Part shown: in pieces, positions 11,358 to 54,975 of the stretch | Position numbering within the stretch: the first letter of the stretch is position 1 | Layout of the letters: each line of letters begins with the position of its first letter | NCBI RefSeq assembly: GCF_003034845.1 | Contig: NZ_PZKC01000008.1 | Coordinates: forward strand, 109,467 to 173,466 | Direction of reading: 5' to 3' | Source: Pseudothauera lacus | GTDB taxonomy: Bacteria; Pseudomonadota; Gammaproteobacteria; Burkholderiales; Rhodocyclaceae | Length of the DNA stretch: 64,000 nt | Translations under genes and position numbers: made by a program | Notes under the pieces: model-generated | Database searches by the model: none | Told to the model about the DNA's origin: nothing | Seen by the model: only the letters and a program-made list of their open reading frames with translations

Positions 11358-12608
<1,251 letters not shown>

Positions 12609-12641
12609 GAGACAGGCTCGATTGGGTTGGAGTAAAGGCGG

Positions 12642-12668
12642 ATATTACCATGCACCGAAAGGGCGCAA
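12642..12668 (-). promoter_or_regulatory. Candidate glyA promoter
   Basis: On the reverse strand TTGCGC (12668-12663) and TAATAT (12647-12642) are separated by 15 bp, 34 bp before the glyA start. The short spacer makes this tentative. It falls in the 103-bp gap between the phosphatase gene and glyA. Confidence 0.3.
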
Positions 12669-12711
12669 GGCGGCATCGTGCGCTGCGGCAAAAGCCGGCG
12701 GGCGGGCGCTC

Positions 12712-13356
12712 TCAGGCGTTGGCGAGTTCGTCGCGGGCGCCGTCGAGGTGGCGCTGCTCGGCCCACGCCTGCAGTCGCCAGCCCTGGCCGTCGTGCACGA
12801 TCCAGTTGAGCGCGGCATTGGGGATGACGAAGTCGCGCGGTGGCTGCAGCGCCTTGCCGGTCGCCAGGCGGTGCACGATGTCGAGTACGCCGCCGTGACA
12901 GACGATGAGCAGCTGGCCGCCGGCATGGCGGTGGGCGAGATCGGCGAGTACGGCGTCAATGCGCGCGGCGAAGGCGCTCAGGCTCTCGCCGCTCCCGGGA
13001 AAGGCGAAATCCGGCTCGCGCGCATGGAAGCGCGCATAGGCCTGGGGGTGGCGGGCTTCGGCCTCGGCGTAGGTGAGCCCCTGGAAGAGGCCGTAATGGC
13101 GCTCGCGCAGGCGTGCATCGGCGAACGGCGGTGGATGTCCGGCGGCGCAGATGGCGGCGGCGGTCTGGCGCGCGCGCAGCAGGTCGCTGGTATATACCGC
13201 GGCAAAGCGCTCGGCCGCCAGACTGGCGGCCGTGGCGCGGGCCTGGCGTTCGCCGACGGCGTTGAGGGGGATGTCGAGGTGGCCCTGCAGGCGGCGCTCG
13301 GCGTTCCAGTCGGTCTCACCATGGCGCACCAGGCAGAGCCTGGTGGCCGTCACCAT
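12712..13356 (-). CDS. Histidine phosphatase family protein (phosphoglycerate mutase-like)
   Basis: A 214-residue branch-1 histidine phosphatase. The phospho-histidine motif is LVRHGETDWN (His12); other family residues are Arg and Glu in SDLLRARQTA and LRERHYGLFQG, and the second catalytic histidine in CHGGVLD. This group includes PhoE/GpmB-like broad phosphatases and alpha-ribazole phosphatase CobC; nothing here decides the substrate. It overlaps the dctM stop by 7 bp, so it is probably cotranscribed with the TRAP genes. Confidence 0.85.
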   Translation of the reverse strand: MVTATRLCLVRHGETDWNAERRLQGHLDIPLNAVGERQARATAASLAAERFAAVYTSDLLRARQTAAAICAAGHPPPFADARLRERHYGLFQGLTYAEAEARHPQAYARFHAREPDFAFPGSGESLSAFAARIDAVLADLAHRHAGGQLLIVCHGGVLDIVHRLATGKALQPPRDFVIPNAALNWIVHDGQGWRLQAWAEQRHLDGARDELANA

Positions 13357-49476: not shown

Positions 49477-49974
49477 TCAGTCGAACGCGCCGCGGTCGAG
49501 TTTCACGGCCCAGTCCACATTGATCTCGTCGAAGCGCAGGATGCGGCGCCCGCCGTGGTCGGCCATGAACTCCTCGGCGTCCTCCTTGCTGAGGAAGGGA
49601 ATGAAATCGTGGGCCATCGGACCCAGCACGTCCGAGCCGATCACGTACCAGGCGGTCGTCGCGTCGATGCGCTGCAGGTCGTAGTACTCGGTGACGCCGA
49701 TGGTGCGCACGTTCTCGCGCCGATGCCCGGGGGCGTAGCGGTCGAGCTGGTGGATGAACTTGAACATGTCCTTGGCACCGTCGAAGTGGTGCACGTGGCC
49801 GTCATCGAAGACCACCGTGGCGATCCACTCCGGATACTTGGAGACGACCATGCCGCACACCGGGCAGAGGTCGCGCGGTCCCGGCTTGGGCGTGTCGACG
49901 GGCTGTGCCGCCACCACCCCCGGCCACAGGCCGAGGGTGGTGCACAGCGCCAGGCTGGCAACGAATGCGCGCAT
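49477..49974 (-). CDS. nosL: NosL-family copper-binding protein (Sec-exported)
   Basis: A 165-residue periplasmic protein: Sec signal peptide (cleavage near AAQ, residue 23) and a NosL domain with CPVCGMVVSKYPEW (Cys37, Cys40, Met42), FDDGHVHHFDGAKDMFKF and the C-terminal EDAEEFMADHGGRRILRFDEI. NosL proteins bind Cu(I) and help fill the CuZ site of nitrous oxide reductase. Last gene of an eight-gene operon, one base after a second NosL-like gene. nosZ is not in the window. Confidence 0.88.
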   Translation of the reverse strand: MRAFVASLALCTTLGLWPGVVAAQPVDTPKPGPRDLCPVCGMVVSKYPEWIATVVFDDGHVHHFDGAKDMFKFIHQLDRYAPGHRRENVRTIGVTEYYDLQRIDATTAWYVIGSDVLGPMAHDFIPFLSKEDAEEFMADHGGRRILRFDEINVDWAVKLDRGAFD

Positions 49975-49975
49975 C

Positions 49976-50578
49976 TCAGCCGCGCCCTTCCATCGCACGA
50001 CGGCGCCGTTCGGCGCGGCGGGCACGGATGCGTTCGACGTCCTTGGCCATGTCGAGGTAGGTCGCTTCCAGCGCACCCTGGAAGTTGCTTGGCGTGCCGC
50101 CGTGGGCAGCCTGGATTCTCGCCAGGCCGTCCTGGGTGGCAAAGGAGTGCTTGCTGCGCGCGGTCATCGCGTGCGGCAGGTCGGCGCCGATGAGATAGTG
50201 CAGCGTGTCGACCTCGAGCAGCGGGCGCGGCTCGGCTGCGGCAGCGTAATCCGGCCCCCAGATCGCCTTCGGCGAGCGGTCGATGTTGAGCGACAGGCTG
50301 ATCGCCAGACAGTGGATGGAGCACACGCCGTCGGCCAGGTCGTCGGAGTAGTGCACCAGCATGCGGGTACGATGGTGCTCGCGGCGGTCCATGCCGCAGT
50401 AGGGGCACTTGGGGTACTTGTCCAGTTCGCCGACCAGCGGCTGCGGGTCCGGCGCGGTCTTGGGGATGAACTGGTTGGGAGTGCCGTCGCCCTCGCAGCC
50501 TGCCGCTGCGGCGGGGCTGGCAACGACGGCGGCGGCGCTGCCGAGCAGCGAGAGTTTGAGCAGTTCACGACGATCCAT
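49976..50578 (-). CDS. NosL-like protein with Tat-type signal
   Basis: A 200-residue exported protein. The N-terminus DRRELLKLSLLG resembles a Tat signal, with cleavage near residue 26. The NosL-like domain has CPYCGM (Cys58, Cys61, Met63) and a second pair in GVCSIHCL (Cys86, Cys90), then HSFATQDGLARIQAAHGG. The C-terminus is an Arg-rich helix (RIRARRAERRRR). Two cysteine pairs suggest a soft metal such as Cu(I). Tat export would imply folding or metal loading in the cytosol; this is inference. 45 bp after the TauE/SafE-like gene. Confidence 0.8.
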   Translation of the reverse strand: MDRRELLKLSLLGSAAAVVASPAAAAGCEGDGTPNQFIPKTAPDPQPLVGELDKYPKCPYCGMDRREHHRTRMLVHYSDDLADGVCSIHCLAISLSLNIDRSPKAIWGPDYAAAAEPRPLLEVDTLHYLIGADLPHAMTARSKHSFATQDGLARIQAAHGGTPSNFQGALEATYLDMAKDVERIRARRAERRRRAMEGRG

Positions 50579-50623
50579 GGGGTTTCTCCTTCTTGTGACG
50601 CGTTGAAAAATTCTGCGCCCGGG

Positions 50624-51319
50624 TCACAGCACCAGCCGGGCCATGACCAGGTAGTAGCGGATGCCTTGCCAGAGCGTGGCCGCGCCCATCAGCACGATGG
50701 TCAGTGCGGCGGCCTTCAGCAGCCAGCTGCGCGCGCCGATGCCGAGGCGGCCGAACAGCCACGAGGCGGCGAGCATCGACGGCAGGGTGCCGAAGCCGAA
50801 CGCCAGCATCAGGGCCATGCCATGCACCGGGGTAGGGCTGGCGCTGGCCTGGAAGGCCATCGCCATGGTCAGCGAGCACGGCATCAAGGCATTGATGGCG
50901 CCGCCGATACCGGCTCCGGCGAGCGGACCGTGCCGCCCGGCCTCGCCGAACTGGCGGCGCAACCACGCCACCGGCGCGAAGCTGAGGCGGTTGCGGAACG
51001 GGAGGCGGCCGATGAGGTCGAGCCCGAGCCCGATGATGATGATGCCGGCGACGATCTGCAGGGCGCCCTGGGCAAGGCCGAAGCGGCCGCTGGAGATCAG
51101 TACCGCGCCGAGCAGGGCGGCGAGAAAGCCGATCACCGCGTACACCGCGATGCGCGCGAAGTGGTAGATCAGGTAGGGCGCGGCGCCGCGAGCCTGCAGG
51201 CGCATGAAAAAGGCCGACACCAGGCCGCCACACATGCCCAGGCAGTGGGCGCTGCCGAGCAGGCCGGCGGCGACGGCGCCGACGTAGATTGCCGGGGCGT
51301 GGCCCGCGAGCGCGCTCAT
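50624..51319 (-). CDS. TauE/SafE-like (UreH/DsbD-type) membrane protein
   Basis: A 231-residue inner-membrane protein with about six helices. The signature GLLGSAHCLGMCGGLVSAF in the first helix and INALMPCSLTMAMAF in the second half form the paired Cys/Pro-Cys motifs of the UreH/SafE branch, used in metal or thiol transport and cytochrome oxidase assembly. It overlaps the TlpA gene by 4 bp. Its cysteines and the thioredoxin neighbour suggest electron transfer across the membrane or copper transport. Confidence 0.82.
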   Translation of the reverse strand: MSALAGHAPAIYVGAVAAGLLGSAHCLGMCGGLVSAFFMRLQARGAAPYLIYHFARIAVYAVIGFLAALLGAVLISSGRFGLAQGALQIVAGIIIIGLGLDLIGRLPFRNRLSFAPVAWLRRQFGEAGRHGPLAGAGIGGAINALMPCSLTMAMAFQASASPTPVHGMALMLAFGFGTLPSMLAASWLFGRLGIGARSWLLKAAALTIVLMGAATLWQGIRYYLVMARLVL

Positions 51320-51822
51320 CGGCGGGCCTCCAGCAACTTGTCGAGCTGCGCGCGGAATACCTCCGGGGTGGTTTCGCCAAGCAGCTTGCTGCGCACCACG
51401 CCCTCGCCGTCGATGAAGAAGGTCGTCGGCAGTCCGATGACGCCATAGCTGCGGGCGATGGCCGAACCCTCGTCGAGCAGCACCGGGTAGCTGATCTCGA
51501 GCTTGCGCACGAAGGCCTCGACGGTGGCTGGCGACTGTCCGGCGTTGATTGCGAGGAATTCCACTCCGTGTTCGCGCAGGGCCTGGTAGACCGGTTCCAT
51601 GTCGCGCATCTCGGGTTCGCAGAAGCGGCACCAGTCGGCCCAGAAACGCAACACCACGATGCGTCCGGCGGTGTCGGCGGGGAAGCGCAGCGCCTCGCCG
51701 TCGAGCACAGGCGTCTCAAAGGCCGGCGCCTGCGCACCGATGTTGATGTTGTCGGGTTCGCCGCCGCAGGCGGTGACGATCAACGCGAGGGCGAGCACGC
51801 GGCAGGCACGCAGCAGCGACAT
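51316..51822 (-). CDS. TlpA/ResA-like thioredoxin lipoprotein
   Basis: A 168-residue lipoprotein: lipobox VTAC (Cys19), then a thioredoxin fold (about 28-168) with active site WCRFC (Cys65, Cys68), FLAINAGQSPATVEAF and the cis-proline motif GLPTTFFIDGEG. TlpA-type proteins reduce periplasmic disulfides, e.g. in copper chaperones and Cu sites. It shares one base with the stop of the upstream membrane gene and overlaps the downstream one, so it is tightly coupled. Confidence 0.9.
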   Translation of the reverse strand: MSLLRACRVLALALIVTACGGEPDNINIGAQAPAFETPVLDGEALRFPADTAGRIVVLRFWADWCRFCEPEMRDMEPVYQALREHGVEFLAINAGQSPATVEAFVRKLEISYPVLLDEGSAIARSYGVIGLPTTFFIDGEGVVRSKLLGETTPEVFRAQLDKLLEARR

Positions 51823-52826
51823 CAGGACTCCAGCAGGATGAGGTTGGACGACTGGATCATCAGGGTCGCCAGCGCGAGGAAAAGCGCGAAGCCGGCCGCC
51901 GCCCAGCCCGCAAGACGGGCGCACAGGGCGGGCATCACGGTGCGCAGCCCCGGTCGGGCGGAAAAGGGCGCGAGCACGCCGACGCCCAGGCCGCATGCGC
52001 TGGCGGCAAACAGCGGCAGATACAGGGCGTAGCCGTAATAGCCGTGCTCGGCCTGCAGGATGCAGAACGGGCAGTGATGGTGAGGGTGTTCGTAGATGTA
52101 CAGGGAGACGAAGGCGATGATGCCGACGATGGCGGCCACGAAGGCCAGTGCGCTGCTCGCCCCGGCCAGCCACGCGCCGCGCCGGCGCAGGCGGTAGTGC
52201 AGGTTGGCTGCGCAGGCGAGCAGCACGCTGAAGTAGAAGGCGAGCATGGCCGGCCGTGGGGGCAGGGCGGCGAGCGTGCCGCTGACGCTGGGCGAGTCGG
52301 CCGAAAACAGGCTGCCGCAGCACGAGGTGATCACGTCGGCGCGCAGATTGCCGAAATACAGCCCCTGCAGGGCGAGCACCGTGCCGGTGAGCGGCAGCAG
52401 GACCACCAGCAGCGCGGCGAACTTGAGGCGGACCAGCGGATAGTCGCGTGCCTGGCGGTCGGCGTGATCGAGCAGCAGCCACGACGAGGCGGCGAAGAAC
52501 AATGCGATCTGCGCCAGCAGCGCCGGAAACCCCCAGGCGTTGGCCTGCAGTGTGCCGACCGCGCACATCGCGCCGACGAACTGCACCGCCATGCGGTCGG
52601 CGTTGTAGACGAAGAGCAGCAGCGCCGCGATCTGGCTGACCAGCACGAAGCGCACCAGCACCGACATCAGGTAGGTGCGACGTTCGAGCGCCAGCTGGAG
52701 GCGGCTGCCACTTTGCGGCTGCCAGTGGCGCACCAGCTGCCAGCTCGCCGGCGAGCTCAGCGCCAGGGCGGCGAAGCCCAGGGCGGCGCAAAGCAGCAGG
52801 GCGATGATGGCGGGCTGGAGGATCAT
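51822..52826 (-). CDS. Multi-pass membrane protein with HHHCPFC motif
   Basis: A 334-residue protein with about eight hydrophobic segments that I cannot assign to a named family. Two soluble-facing motifs stand out: SCCGS at 168-172, after YFGNLRADVIT, and HPHHHCPFCILQ at about 247-258, following a helix. Histidines plus CxxC suggest metal or heme binding, or thiol exchange with the adjacent TlpA. It lies between the ABC ATPase (13 bp away) and the TlpA gene (1-bp overlap). Confidence 0.75.
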   Translation of the reverse strand: MILQPAIIALLLCAALGFAALALSSPASWQLVRHWQPQSGSRLQLALERRTYLMSVLVRFVLVSQIAALLLFVYNADRMAVQFVGAMCAVGTLQANAWGFPALLAQIALFFAASSWLLLDHADRQARDYPLVRLKFAALLVVLLPLTGTVLALQGLYFGNLRADVITSCCGSLFSADSPSVSGTLAALPPRPAMLAFYFSVLLACAANLHYRLRRRGAWLAGASSALAFVAAIVGIIAFVSLYIYEHPHHHCPFCILQAEHGYYGYALYLPLFAASACGLGVGVLAPFSARPGLRTVMPALCARLAGWAAAGFALFLALATLMIQSSNLILLES

Positions 52827-52839
52827 CGGCCGTGTTCCG

Positions 52840-53529
52840 TCATTGCGCGTCGACCACGCGCCCGTCGCGCAGGGTGACGATGCGGTGCATCAGGCCGGAG
52901 TCGAGCACGAGCGGGTCATGGCTGGTGAGCACGATGGTCTTGCCGTCGGCGTGGAGCTCGGCCATCAGTTGCAGGAATTCCTCGGCCAGGCGGGTGTCGA
53001 GGTTGGCCGTGGGCTCGTCGGCAATGAGGATGTCGGGGTCGTTGATCAGCGCGCGGGCGATCGCCACGCGCTGCTGCTCGCCTCCGGACAGCCACTCCAC
53101 CGGCGCGTCGGCGCGGTGGGCAAGGCGGAAGCGCTCGAGCAGGGCCTGTGCGCGCGCGCTCAGCACCGCGTGGGGCTGGCCGAGCGGAAAGGCCGGCAGC
53201 ATCACGTTGTCGCGTGCGCTGAGGCCGCGGATGAGGTTGAACTGCTGGAAGACGAAACCGAAGCGCTGGCGGCGCAGTTCGGTGAGGAAGCGCTCGGGCA
53301 GGGCGGAGACGTCTTCGTCGCCGATGCGCACCCGCCCGCTGGTGGGGCGTGCCAGGCAGCCGAGCAGGGTGAGCAGGGTGGTCTTGCCCGAGCCACTGGG
53401 GCCGCGCAGGGCGCTGATGCGCCCATGCTCCAGTGCCAGGCTGATGCCGTCGATGGCGGTGAAGGCGTTGGGCTGGCCGTCGTTGTAGGTCTTGCAGACC
53501 TCGCGCAGCTCGATCAGGGGTTGGCTCAT
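52840..53529 (-). CDS. ABC transporter ATP-binding protein (MacB/LolD type)
   Basis: A 229-residue ATPase with Walker A GPSGSGKTT (about 43-51), Q-loop FVFQQFNLI, signature WLSGGEQQRVAIARAL, Walker B ILIADEPTANLD and switch LTSHD. This branch (LolD, MacB, FtsE) partners with FtsX-type permeases, and one is encoded just upstream with a 4-bp overlap. Confidence 0.93.
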   Translation of the reverse strand: MSQPLIELREVCKTYNDGQPNAFTAIDGISLALEHGRISALRGPSGSGKTTLLTLLGCLARPTSGRVRIGDEDVSALPERFLTELRRQRFGFVFQQFNLIRGLSARDNVMLPAFPLGQPHAVLSARAQALLERFRLAHRADAPVEWLSGGEQQRVAIARALINDPDILIADEPTANLDTRLAEEFLQLMAELHADGKTIVLTSHDPLVLDSGLMHRIVTLRDGRVVDAQ

Positions 53530-54659
53530 GATCGCATCACCGCGTCCGGGTCGGTGGTGGCGGCCCGCCAGCACGGCACCAGCACCGCGACGGTGTAGGG
53601 CAGCACGGTGAGCAGGGCGAGGGTGAGTACCTGCAGGGGGTCGATCTCGGGCGGCAGCGCAAAGCGCGGGTAAAGCACGGCCCAGCCCTGCAGCACGGGG
53701 CGGAAGAGGGCGCCGTGGAGGTGAAACACGTGCACATGGGCGAGCACGTAGCCACTCAGAAAGGCGGTCCCGGAGAGCAGCGCGCCCTCCCAGAACTTCA
53801 TCCGCAGCACGTCGCCGGTCTCCCAGCCGATGGCCTTCAGGATGCCGATTTCGCGCCGTTCTTCGGCCGCCAGGCCGGAGGCCTTGTCCCAGGCCAGCAG
53901 GGCGAAGGCGAGCAGCGCGCCGCTGAGGATGGCCAGCACGATGCCCTGGCGCCAGTCGAACAGCGCGGCATAGGTGCGCAGCACTTCGTCGCGCAGGATC
54001 AGGCGCGCATCCGGCAGGGCCTCGGACAGACGCGTGGCAACGTTGCGGACCTCGCGCGGATTGCGCACGGCGATGGCGATGTCGGTGTACTGGCCTTCGG
54101 GGTAATTGAAAAAGCCGCGGAAGTCGTCCTCGCCGAGCAGGACCAGGTCGGCGCTCATCAGCTCGCTGTGCGCGTCGAGAATACCGGCCACGGTAAAGGT
54201 GTGTACCGCGCCGTCGTAGGCCCGCCAGGCAATCAGGTTGCCCGGGGCGACCCCGCGCGCGCGCGCCATCGCCGGGCCGATGAGAATGTGGCCGGGCGGC
54301 GGTGCGTCGGCGGTGGCCATGAAGGTGTAGTTGGCCTGTACCACCGGGTCGTAGAAGTAGCCCCACAGCCGCGGCGTCATCTCGCGCACCCCGCGCTGGC
54401 GCGGGATGCGTTCGAGGTAGTCGGCGGGGATCAGCGCGTGGCGCCCGGCCACCAGATGCTGGAGGACGACCTCGGGGCTGTGGGCGAGCACCCGTGCGGC
54501 CTCCTGACGCAGCGCATGGGTGAACAGCATCACCGAGGCGAGCACGAACACCACGGCCGTGTAGGTCAGCAGCAGCCCCAGGCTGCGCGCGCGACGGCGG
54601 CCGAGCGCGGCCACCGTGTATTCAATCAGCAGTCGCTGACGGTTGAGCCAGGTGCGCAT
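53526..54659 (-). CDS. FtsX-type ABC transporter permease
   Basis: A 377-residue protein with the MacB/FtsX layout: one N-terminal helix (about 25-47), a large periplasmic domain (about 50-240; LVAGRHALIPADYLERIPRQRG), then three C-terminal helices (about 243-265, 297-320, 345-370) with the ERREIGILKAIGWETGDVL coupling segment. These are mechanotransmission transporters, often acting on lipoproteins or periplasmic partners rather than importing solutes. Its start overlaps the small upstream gene by 38 bp. Confidence 0.9.
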   Translation of the reverse strand: MRTWLNRQRLLIEYTVAALGRRRARSLGLLLTYTAVVFVLASVMLFTHALRQEAARVLAHSPEVVLQHLVAGRHALIPADYLERIPRQRGVREMTPRLWGYFYDPVVQANYTFMATADAPPPGHILIGPAMARARGVAPGNLIAWRAYDGAVHTFTVAGILDAHSELMSADLVLLGEDDFRGFFNYPEGQYTDIAIAVRNPREVRNVATRLSEALPDARLILRDEVLRTYAALFDWRQGIVLAILSGALLAFALLAWDKASGLAAEERREIGILKAIGWETGDVLRMKFWEGALLSGTAFLSGYVLAHVHVFHLHGALFRPVLQGWAVLYPRFALPPEIDPLQVLTLALLTVLPYTVAVLVPCWRAATTDPDAVMRS

Positions 54660-54975
54660 GTCGCGGAGGCGGCAGCAGCGAGCCGCCAGGGAAGAGGTCG
54701 AAGGCCAGGGGGTGATCCTGGAAGTGCGCGTGCAGGTCGGCCTGCGAGGGGTGGCGCAGGTAGCGCGCCTCGGTCATCAGGACCGGGTCGGTGAGGCCCA
54801 GGCGGGCGGTCAGGGCGATGCTGGCCTGGGTGTGCGGGGCGCGCTCCGCGCGCAGGCGCGCGGCGTCGACGAAGGTCGCCGCGAAGGCGGCGATGAGGGC
54901 GGCGAAGACGCCCAGTACGTAGGTGGACGCCGGGCGTGGGCGGGAGGGGAGGGGCCGGAATGGTGCGGGGCGCAT
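54622..54975 (-). CDS. Small membrane-anchored protein, first gene of the NosL-ABC operon
   Basis: A 117-residue protein with a proline-rich cytosolic start, one helix (about 20-38), and a periplasmic part containing LMTEARYLRHPSQADLHAHFQDHPLAFDLFPGG split by normal loops. Not recognised. It overlaps the permease start by 38 bp, which supports coupled translation. The frame is credible because it sits behind a promoter and FNR-like site and has a clear membrane segment. Confidence 0.6.
   Translation of the reverse strand: MRPAPFRPLPSRPRPASTYVLGVFAALIAAFAATFVDAARLRAERAPHTQASIALTARLGLTDPVLMTEARYLRHPSQADLHAHFQDHPLAFDLFPGGSLLPPPRHAHLAQPSATAD

Follow-up and report, generated by a model that had tools for sequence, protein, structure and literature searches.

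Introduction

Whether N2O or N2 leaves a denitrifying cell depends in part on how nitrous oxide reductase (NosZ) and the oxidases used at low oxygen are loaded with copper, and Rhodocyclaceae, Gallionellaceae, Thauera and Dechloromonas are important in wastewater and sediments. Type VII ATP-binding cassette (ABC) transporters move or extract substrates on the outer side of the inner membrane, and LolCDE, MacB and HrtB are not known as importers. In Campylobacter, the FetABCDEF proteins (an eight-transmembrane (8-TM) DUF2318 protein, two permeases, an ATPase and two thioredoxins) support iron uptake (PMC10783030). NosL is described in one report as clustering with N2O reductase in beta-proteobacteria (PMC6769254), and passages of a review tie it to NosZ only (PMC7558416). 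Here we describe an eight-gene operon in a 64,000-nucleotide stretch of the Pseudothauera lacus genome (contig NZ_PZKC01000008.1, positions 109,467 to 173,466; hereafter the window), encoding a small anchored protein, an FtsX-type permease, an ABC ATPase, an 8-TM membrane protein with an HHHCPFC motif, a TlpA-like lipoprotein, a DsbD_2-family membrane protein and two NosL-type proteins. No published description of this operon was found.

We propose, with a probability of slightly above one half, that the operon encodes an ATP-powered, thiol-reducing machine that delivers Cu(I) at the periplasmic face to NosZ and/or heme-copper oxidases, and that it is probably switched on at low oxygen. Judged from gene content, the copper role is well supported by the operon's partners; we infer both the delivery route (a P1B-type ATPase or another source, Sco and NosL, then release driven by ATP) and the target, which would be NosZ and/or heme-copper oxidases. 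Counted in favour of copper delivery were the two NosL proteins, the Sco and P1B ATPase partners, the adjacency to nos genes, the enrichment of nosZ among carriers, and the NosL genes that precede the core genes in two distant loci (L139 and L143), together with the LolCDE/MacB/HrtB fold, the conserved residues of thiol or metal type, FNR-type boxes at the operon and close to ccoN combined with an FNR regulator in the host, and oxidase matches in all 10 carriers drawn from the host's class. The first-pass annotation of the window had proposed a periplasmic copper/redox system and compared it with p19/Fet iron clusters; its copper and redox part is supported, and Fet membership and a strict nosZ link are not.

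Gene content and organization

All eight leftward genes, with the overlaps or short gaps described previously, were found on the minus strand between 49477 and 54975 (Table 1). In transcription order, the small protein gene overlaps the FtsX gene by 38 nt, which overlaps the ATPase gene by 4 nt; a 13 nt gap precedes the HHHCPFC gene, which overlaps the TlpA gene by 1 nt; the TlpA gene overlaps the DsbD_2 gene by 4 nt; and gaps of 45 nt and 1 nt separate DsbD_2 from NosL2 and NosL2 from NosL1. Given this spacing, the eight genes likely form a single transcription unit. Pfam agreed with the earlier naming of both NosL-type proteins and of the TlpA-like protein, ATPase and permease (AhpC-TSA, ABC_tran and FtsX, respectively), whereas the membrane protein formerly called TauE/SafE-like is instead assigned to DsbD_2 based on its PF13386 match. 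No NosD domain (PF05048) was found by Pfam among the eight proteins, and NCBIfam gave nothing above cut-off among the matches listed (for the ATPase, the best 25 of 196).

Table 1. Coordinates and family assignments of the operon genes and the upstream box in the window
Feature	Length	Traits	Coordinates	Strand	Match or remark
Small protein	117 aa	one membrane anchor (by inspection)	54622..54975	-	no Pfam or NCBIfam family
FtsX/LolC/MacB-type ABC permease	377 aa		53526..54659	-	PF02687 FtsX
ABC ATPase, FtsE/MacB/LolD type	229 aa		52840..53529	-	PF00005, 114.9 bits
8-TM HHHCPFC membrane protein	334 aa	predicted helices	51822..52826	-	no Pfam family; no NCBIfam family above cut-off
TlpA/ResA-like thioredoxin lipoprotein	168 aa	WCxxC; lipobox Cys19 (by inspection)	51316..51822	-	PF00578, 98.6 bits
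DsbD_2-family membrane protein	231 aa		50624..51319	-	PF13386, 130.2 bits (cut-off 24.9)
NosL2	200 aa	twin-arginine-like N-terminus; CxxCxM and CSxHC	49976..50578	-	PF05573, 34.6 bits (cut-off 24)
NosL1	165 aa	signal peptide (by inspection); CPVCGM	49477..49974	-	PF05573, 111.4 bits (cut-off 24)
FNR/ANR-type box		TTGACGAATATCAA	55018..55031	-	42 bp upstream of first start codon

Comparison with described ABC systems

The predicted structure of the permease (pLDDT 80.2, pTM 0.65) is similar over most of its length to LolE (E 1.1e-15, TM-score 0.55), MacB, the heme exporter HrtB and YbbP, and thus has the LolC/LolE fold, which we take to be that of the type VII ABC transporters. The operon therefore resembles LolCDE, MacB and HrtBA in permease fold and ATPase subfamily; it differs from them in that the permease scores 49.8 bits against the curated LolCE model (cut-off 362.45), the ATPase falls below cut-off for both FtsE (192.9 bits) and LolD (182.4 bits, cut-off 307.75), and the genetic partners are copper and thiol proteins. 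Unlike in MacAB-TolC, ATPase and permease are separate polypeptides rather than fused. The earlier suggestion that the ABC part provides mechanical energy rather than import is in part supported by the resemblance of the model to transporters not known as importers, and the mechanism itself we infer.

With FetMP-FetABCDEF the operon shares a plan consisting of an 8-TM Cys-containing protein, an FtsX permease, an ATPase and a TlpA-like thioredoxin (PMC10783030), and the combination of the last three is present here. A Fet-type locus with the Campylobacter layout, in which one thioredoxin was seen, was used for comparison (L131); identities with the operon were 41% for the ATPase, 30% for the thioredoxin and 20% for the permeases, and the 8-TM protein at the FetA position showed no detectable relation to the HHHCPFC protein (hhalign probability 0.3%). 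The Fet system has two FtsX copies and the operon has one, copper partners accompany the operon, and no match to P19/FetP (PF10634) was found in the host genome. FetM (FTR1 iron permease) is not among the eight proteins, a statement limited to these proteins as no genome-wide search for it was made. Membership of the p19/Fet iron systems is thus not upheld, and by this comparison the two share a plan only. The parallel nevertheless lends support to the notion that an ABC machine acts together with thiol chemistry on the periplasmic side. A system for iron or heme, similar to Fet or HrtBA and with NosL-type proteins recruited to it, would account for the shared plan, but with P19 absent, FetA unrelated, and recurring partners (Sco1, a copper P1B ATPase and NosL) that point to copper, it is very unlikely.

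The NosDFYL apparatus is similar to the operon in combining NosL-type copper chaperones with an ABC ATPase and permease at the inner membrane, and the operon adjoins nos genes in some genomes. The differences are that the operon permease is of LolC/MacB type (PF02687), whereas an ABC-2 type permease (PF12679) occupies the nosY position in the host; that the operon lacks NosD and has in addition TlpA, DsbD_2 and the 8-TM Cys/His protein; and that it occurs in genomes with no nosZ match, host nosZ itself lying on another contig. The host genome (G000; 3.66 Mb, 41 contigs) encodes a twin-arginine (TAT)-type NosZ (TIGR04244, 993.6 bits, cut-off 625), and its nos cluster contains a NosR-like protein (602.5 bits, below the cut-off of 1000), NosD (438 bits, cut-off 300), an ATPase at the NosF position, the NosY-position permease and two NosL-domain genes. 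The absence of a NosDFY set noted previously therefore holds at this locus and not genome-wide. With two of the four NosL-domain matches in the genome lying in the nos cluster, the two NosL proteins of the operon are extra copies. In the same cluster (L006:2998-12790, contig C1), nosL is followed by an extra 214-amino-acid (aa) open reading frame (ORF; 11506-12150) and the second NosL gene (12155-12790).

Conservation and copper partners in relatives

One genome per species was scanned with a profile of the 8-TM protein, giving 492 stretches, of which the best 80 became loci; counts for individual genes use only loci with enough flanking DNA. Since these loci are the nearest relatives, many of them labelled Rhodocyclaceae, Gallionellaceae, Thauera or Dechloromonas, the counts lean to close kin. 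The permease and the ATPase were each present in 71/71 loci and the small protein in 70/71 loci with 3 kb upstream, so that the core quartet of small protein, permease, ATPase and 8-TM protein is intact in 70/71 nearest relatives. The accessory genes were more variable (TlpA 51/65, NosL2 34/50, NosL1 29/50, DsbD_2 29/50), and all eight genes occurred together in 19/45 loci. A Sco-type gene lies upstream of the operon in 37/66 relatives, and 27/50 carry a P1B ATPase gene and two small companion genes between TlpA and DsbD_2. One representative of each was identified, as SCO1-SenC (138.8 bits) and as a copper ATPase (TIGR01511, 558.9 bits, cut-off 397), respectively. These additions strengthen the copper reading, and the periplasmic copper/redox role first proposed is backed by them and by the few loci that lie beside nos genes.

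In many loci, two conserved proteins with no Pfam family (~120 and ~200 aa; L066:11932-12294, L084:8423-9016 and relatives) are encoded within the operon, next to its P1B ATPase.

Even samples of 274 genomes from the class (class draw) and 398 from the phylum (phylum draw) contained 10 and 7 carriers of the 8-TM protein, respectively, the host included in each, indicating that the operon is rare. In the nine other class carriers, permease, ATPase and 8-TM protein were found together in all nine, and the small protein, TlpA and a NosL in seven each, the small protein being undetected in two. In the phylum draw, L140 and L144 have all eight genes in identical order and L141 has the host's eight-gene order plus the P1B ATPase set; L142, from the host's family, has the quartet, TlpA, the P1B ATPase set and DsbD_2. 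A NosL pair lies ahead of the quartet on the same strand in L139 (no TlpA or DsbD_2), and one NosL gene does so in L143, whose 8-TM protein is 31% identical. All of these except L142 lie outside the host's class. Conservation of gene order beyond close relatives, proposed with the first-pass annotation as a check, was thus seen in L140 and L144, and the recurrence of the core across many independent genomes indicates that the arrangement is more than chance.

Association with nitrous oxide reductase

NosR, NosZ, NosD and NosF matches lie directly upstream of the operon in L028 (Azoarcus taiwanensis), the operon of L039 is followed by NosD and a Sec-type NosZ (917.7 bits, cut-off 625), and NosD and NosF matches lie nearby in L023 and L080 (Thauera). 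The first two are the only loci among the 80 with nosZ itself in the neighbourhood (flank at most 10 kb, often less). A nosZ match was present in 30 of 50 carrier genomes picked from the best 80 loci, mostly short contigs having been dropped. In the class draw, nosZ was found in 43/274 genomes, with 5/10 carriers (host included) positive compared with 38/264 non-carriers (Fisher p 0.010). No nosZ match was found in the remaining five carriers (G068, G134, G136, G163 and G247), whose genomes are 94-100% complete; four of the five keep NosL in the operon.

The association with nosZ is therefore present and not strict, and the operon is not simply a NosZ helper; a strict link is not borne out. 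A second dedicated NosZ maturation set beside NosDFYL, needed by NosZ only, would fit the four loci adjoining nos genes, the enrichment among carriers and the NosZ of the host. Against it stand the near-complete carriers with no nosZ match and the 38 of 43 nosZ genomes in the class draw that lack the system, and we consider this explanation unlikely. As carriers with no nosZ match retain NosL, the clustering of NosL with N2O reductase described for beta-proteobacteria (PMC6769254) does not apply to these operons, and in these groups the presence of NosL by itself is not a reliable sign of N2O reduction.

Oxidases and the FNR-type box

The cbb3 oxidase gene ccoN is present in the host genome, the sole COX2-domain match lies within NosZ, NirK was not found in that genome, and away from the operon it has a single clear Sco gene plus two weak Sco matches. 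The operon resembles the CcoI/CopA2-SenC supply of copper to oxidases in that the operons of relatives repeatedly include a Sco-type gene and a P1B ATPase; it differs in adding NosL proteins and the ABC machine, and the host has a P1B ATPase next to ccoN, on a different contig. In the class draw, ccoN was above cut-off in 9/10 carriers versus 134/264 other genomes (p 0.020), the tenth carrier (G136) having COX2-domain matches and no ccoN above cut-off.

Upstream of the operon, TTGACGAATATCAA is the only exact TTGAYNNNNRTCAA (FNR-type) palindrome in the window, and represents a predicted FNR/ANR box near the promoter (TTGAC-N4-ATCAA, of the TTGAT-N4-ATCAA type). Genome-wide, 26 FNR-type sites were found compared with 4 for a reversed control pattern; two of the 26 are found upstream of ccoN, and the gene for an FNR regulator is ~11 kb away from the ccoN match. 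The host cbb3 cluster (L138, contig C23:58000-77000) contains several FNR-type boxes, a P1B ATPase, FNR, a DsbD_2 paralogue and, presumably, a hemN-like gene.

These data bear on two further explanations. In the first, the operon is an assembly set for heme-copper oxidases, mainly cbb3, and its association with nosZ is incidental to a denitrifying life, in line with the Sco-type and P1B ATPase genes of many relatives, the excess of ccoN among carriers and the FNR-type boxes common to the operon and the cco cluster. The direct nos adjacency in some loci, the tenth carrier and the tie of NosL to NosZ only in the review passages cited above (PMC7558416) speak against it, making it decidedly unlikely. 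In the second, an export and sequestration set would detoxify excess periplasmic copper, for which a P1B ATPase and several Cys/His/Met proteins would be suited. No recognised detoxification protein, for example a multicopper oxidase or a Cus efflux component, was found among the eight proteins or ten annotated neighbours, a weak argument given that most other neighbours are unannotated, and the FNR-type box suggests expression at oxygen lack rather than at copper excess; we regard detoxification as highly improbable.

Conserved residues and proposed mechanism

The 8-TM protein has 3704 homologues at E<=0.001 among 7997 candidates scored, and its model consists of eight long helices (pLDDT 83.9). 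In 16 sequences, Met87-Cys88, Cys169-Cys170, His250-His251-Cys252 and Cys255 are invariant, and Lys/Arg residues cluster on one side of the membrane with the invariant residues on the opposite side, which are therefore predicted to face the periplasm. DsbB/VKOR was considered for the fold; Foldseek gave no match at E<=0.001, and VIA-align rows were mostly generic helical bundles. The small protein carries the motif LTD..TEARY.RH..QADL....QDHP...FP.G.L, whose residues, two His included, are shared by at least 93% of the 54 sequences compared. At the same level of conservation (at least 93% of the sequences compared), the TlpA protein (116.3 bits against NCBIfam ResA, below the cut-off of 170) keeps W64, C65, C68 and C19 (40 sequences); the DsbD_2 protein keeps H25 C26, G28 M29 C30 and M146 P147 C148 (HCxGMC and MPC); NosL2, with a TAT_signal score of 12.8 bits (below the cut-off of 22.7), keeps R3, R4, C58, C61, M63, C86, H89 and C90 (41 sequences); and NosL1 keeps C37, C40, M42, H62 and H140 (32 sequences).

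In the copper-delivery mechanism that we propose, electrons relayed through the membrane by DsbD_2 would reach the TlpA lipoprotein, which would keep Cys ligands reduced. Copper would reach the periplasm via a P1B ATPase, encoded within the operon in many relatives and presumably supplied by another locus in the host, and Cu(I) would be carried by NosL1 and NosL2, plus Sco in the many relatives that have the gene. The predicted periplasmic Cys/His site of the 8-TM protein may hold copper or exchange thiols, and the permease and ATPase, together with the small protein, would couple ATP hydrolysis to movement at the periplasmic side, driving release of copper or of a partner rather than import. 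The target would depend on the host, being NosZ where nos genes adjoin the operon and a heme-copper oxidase where nosZ is missing.

Several observations weigh against this reading. The host copy of the operon has neither Sco nor the P1B ATPase, and no NosL was found in the fetched stretch of L142, from the host's own family. Two class carriers (L097 and L104) show only permease, ATPase and 8-TM protein, with no TlpA or NosL (L097 being cut near the permease), and the genome of L104 (G199) is nosZ-positive. Nos genes lie within ~10 kb in only 4/80 loci, some of them shorter, and 20 of the 50 carrier genomes, whose completeness was not established, have no nosZ match. Because ccoN is above cut-off in as many as 143/274 class-draw genomes, its presence in carriers says little, being compatible with an oxidase target and not proof of one. 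An exact FNR box is upstream in only 5/80 loci, and when a single mismatch to the strict consensus is allowed, a site occurs in 2/70 loci versus 1.4% of controls; relatives in general do not share the predicted box. Finally, no structural match revealing the chemistry of the 8-TM protein, and no fold relative, was found.

A broader version, unlikely in our judgement, would be a general copper-insertion machine of anaerobic and microaerobic respiration, in which ATP-driven strokes of the LolC/MacB-type ABC part strip Cu(I) from the 8-TM Cys/His receiver and pass it to NosL or Sco under TlpA reduction, for any respiratory cuproenzyme of the host. If true, this would be the first type VII-class transporter in cuproenzyme assembly and would give the NosL family a role apart from nitrous oxide reductase. 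The operon offers an uncharacterised ABC machine and a membrane protein family without a name, both tied to copper chaperones.

Other observations at the loci

The genes flanking the operon in the window look unrelated to it; a phosphomannomutase-like protein appears to be encoded at one end, and an alanyl-tRNA synthetase together with a GGDEF-type protein at the other. In L021, L022, L032, L033 and L035, several of them labelled Gallionellaceae or Nitrosomonadales, the operon directly follows what are presumably molybdate-transporter-like genes (ModA-like). In L050, L053, L059, L068, L076 and L077, a NosL2-like gene is next to a large ORF belonging to a TonB-receptor cluster (the ORF annotated, in L053, is of heme-receptor type), and several of these loci have small genes that we assume to resemble those for an extracytoplasmic function (ECF) sigma factor and FecR. 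In L101 (10225-12696), the 8-TM gene is separated from tlpA by two tandem 385-aa ORFs, identical in the portions compared, which resemble a doubled mobile-element insertion.

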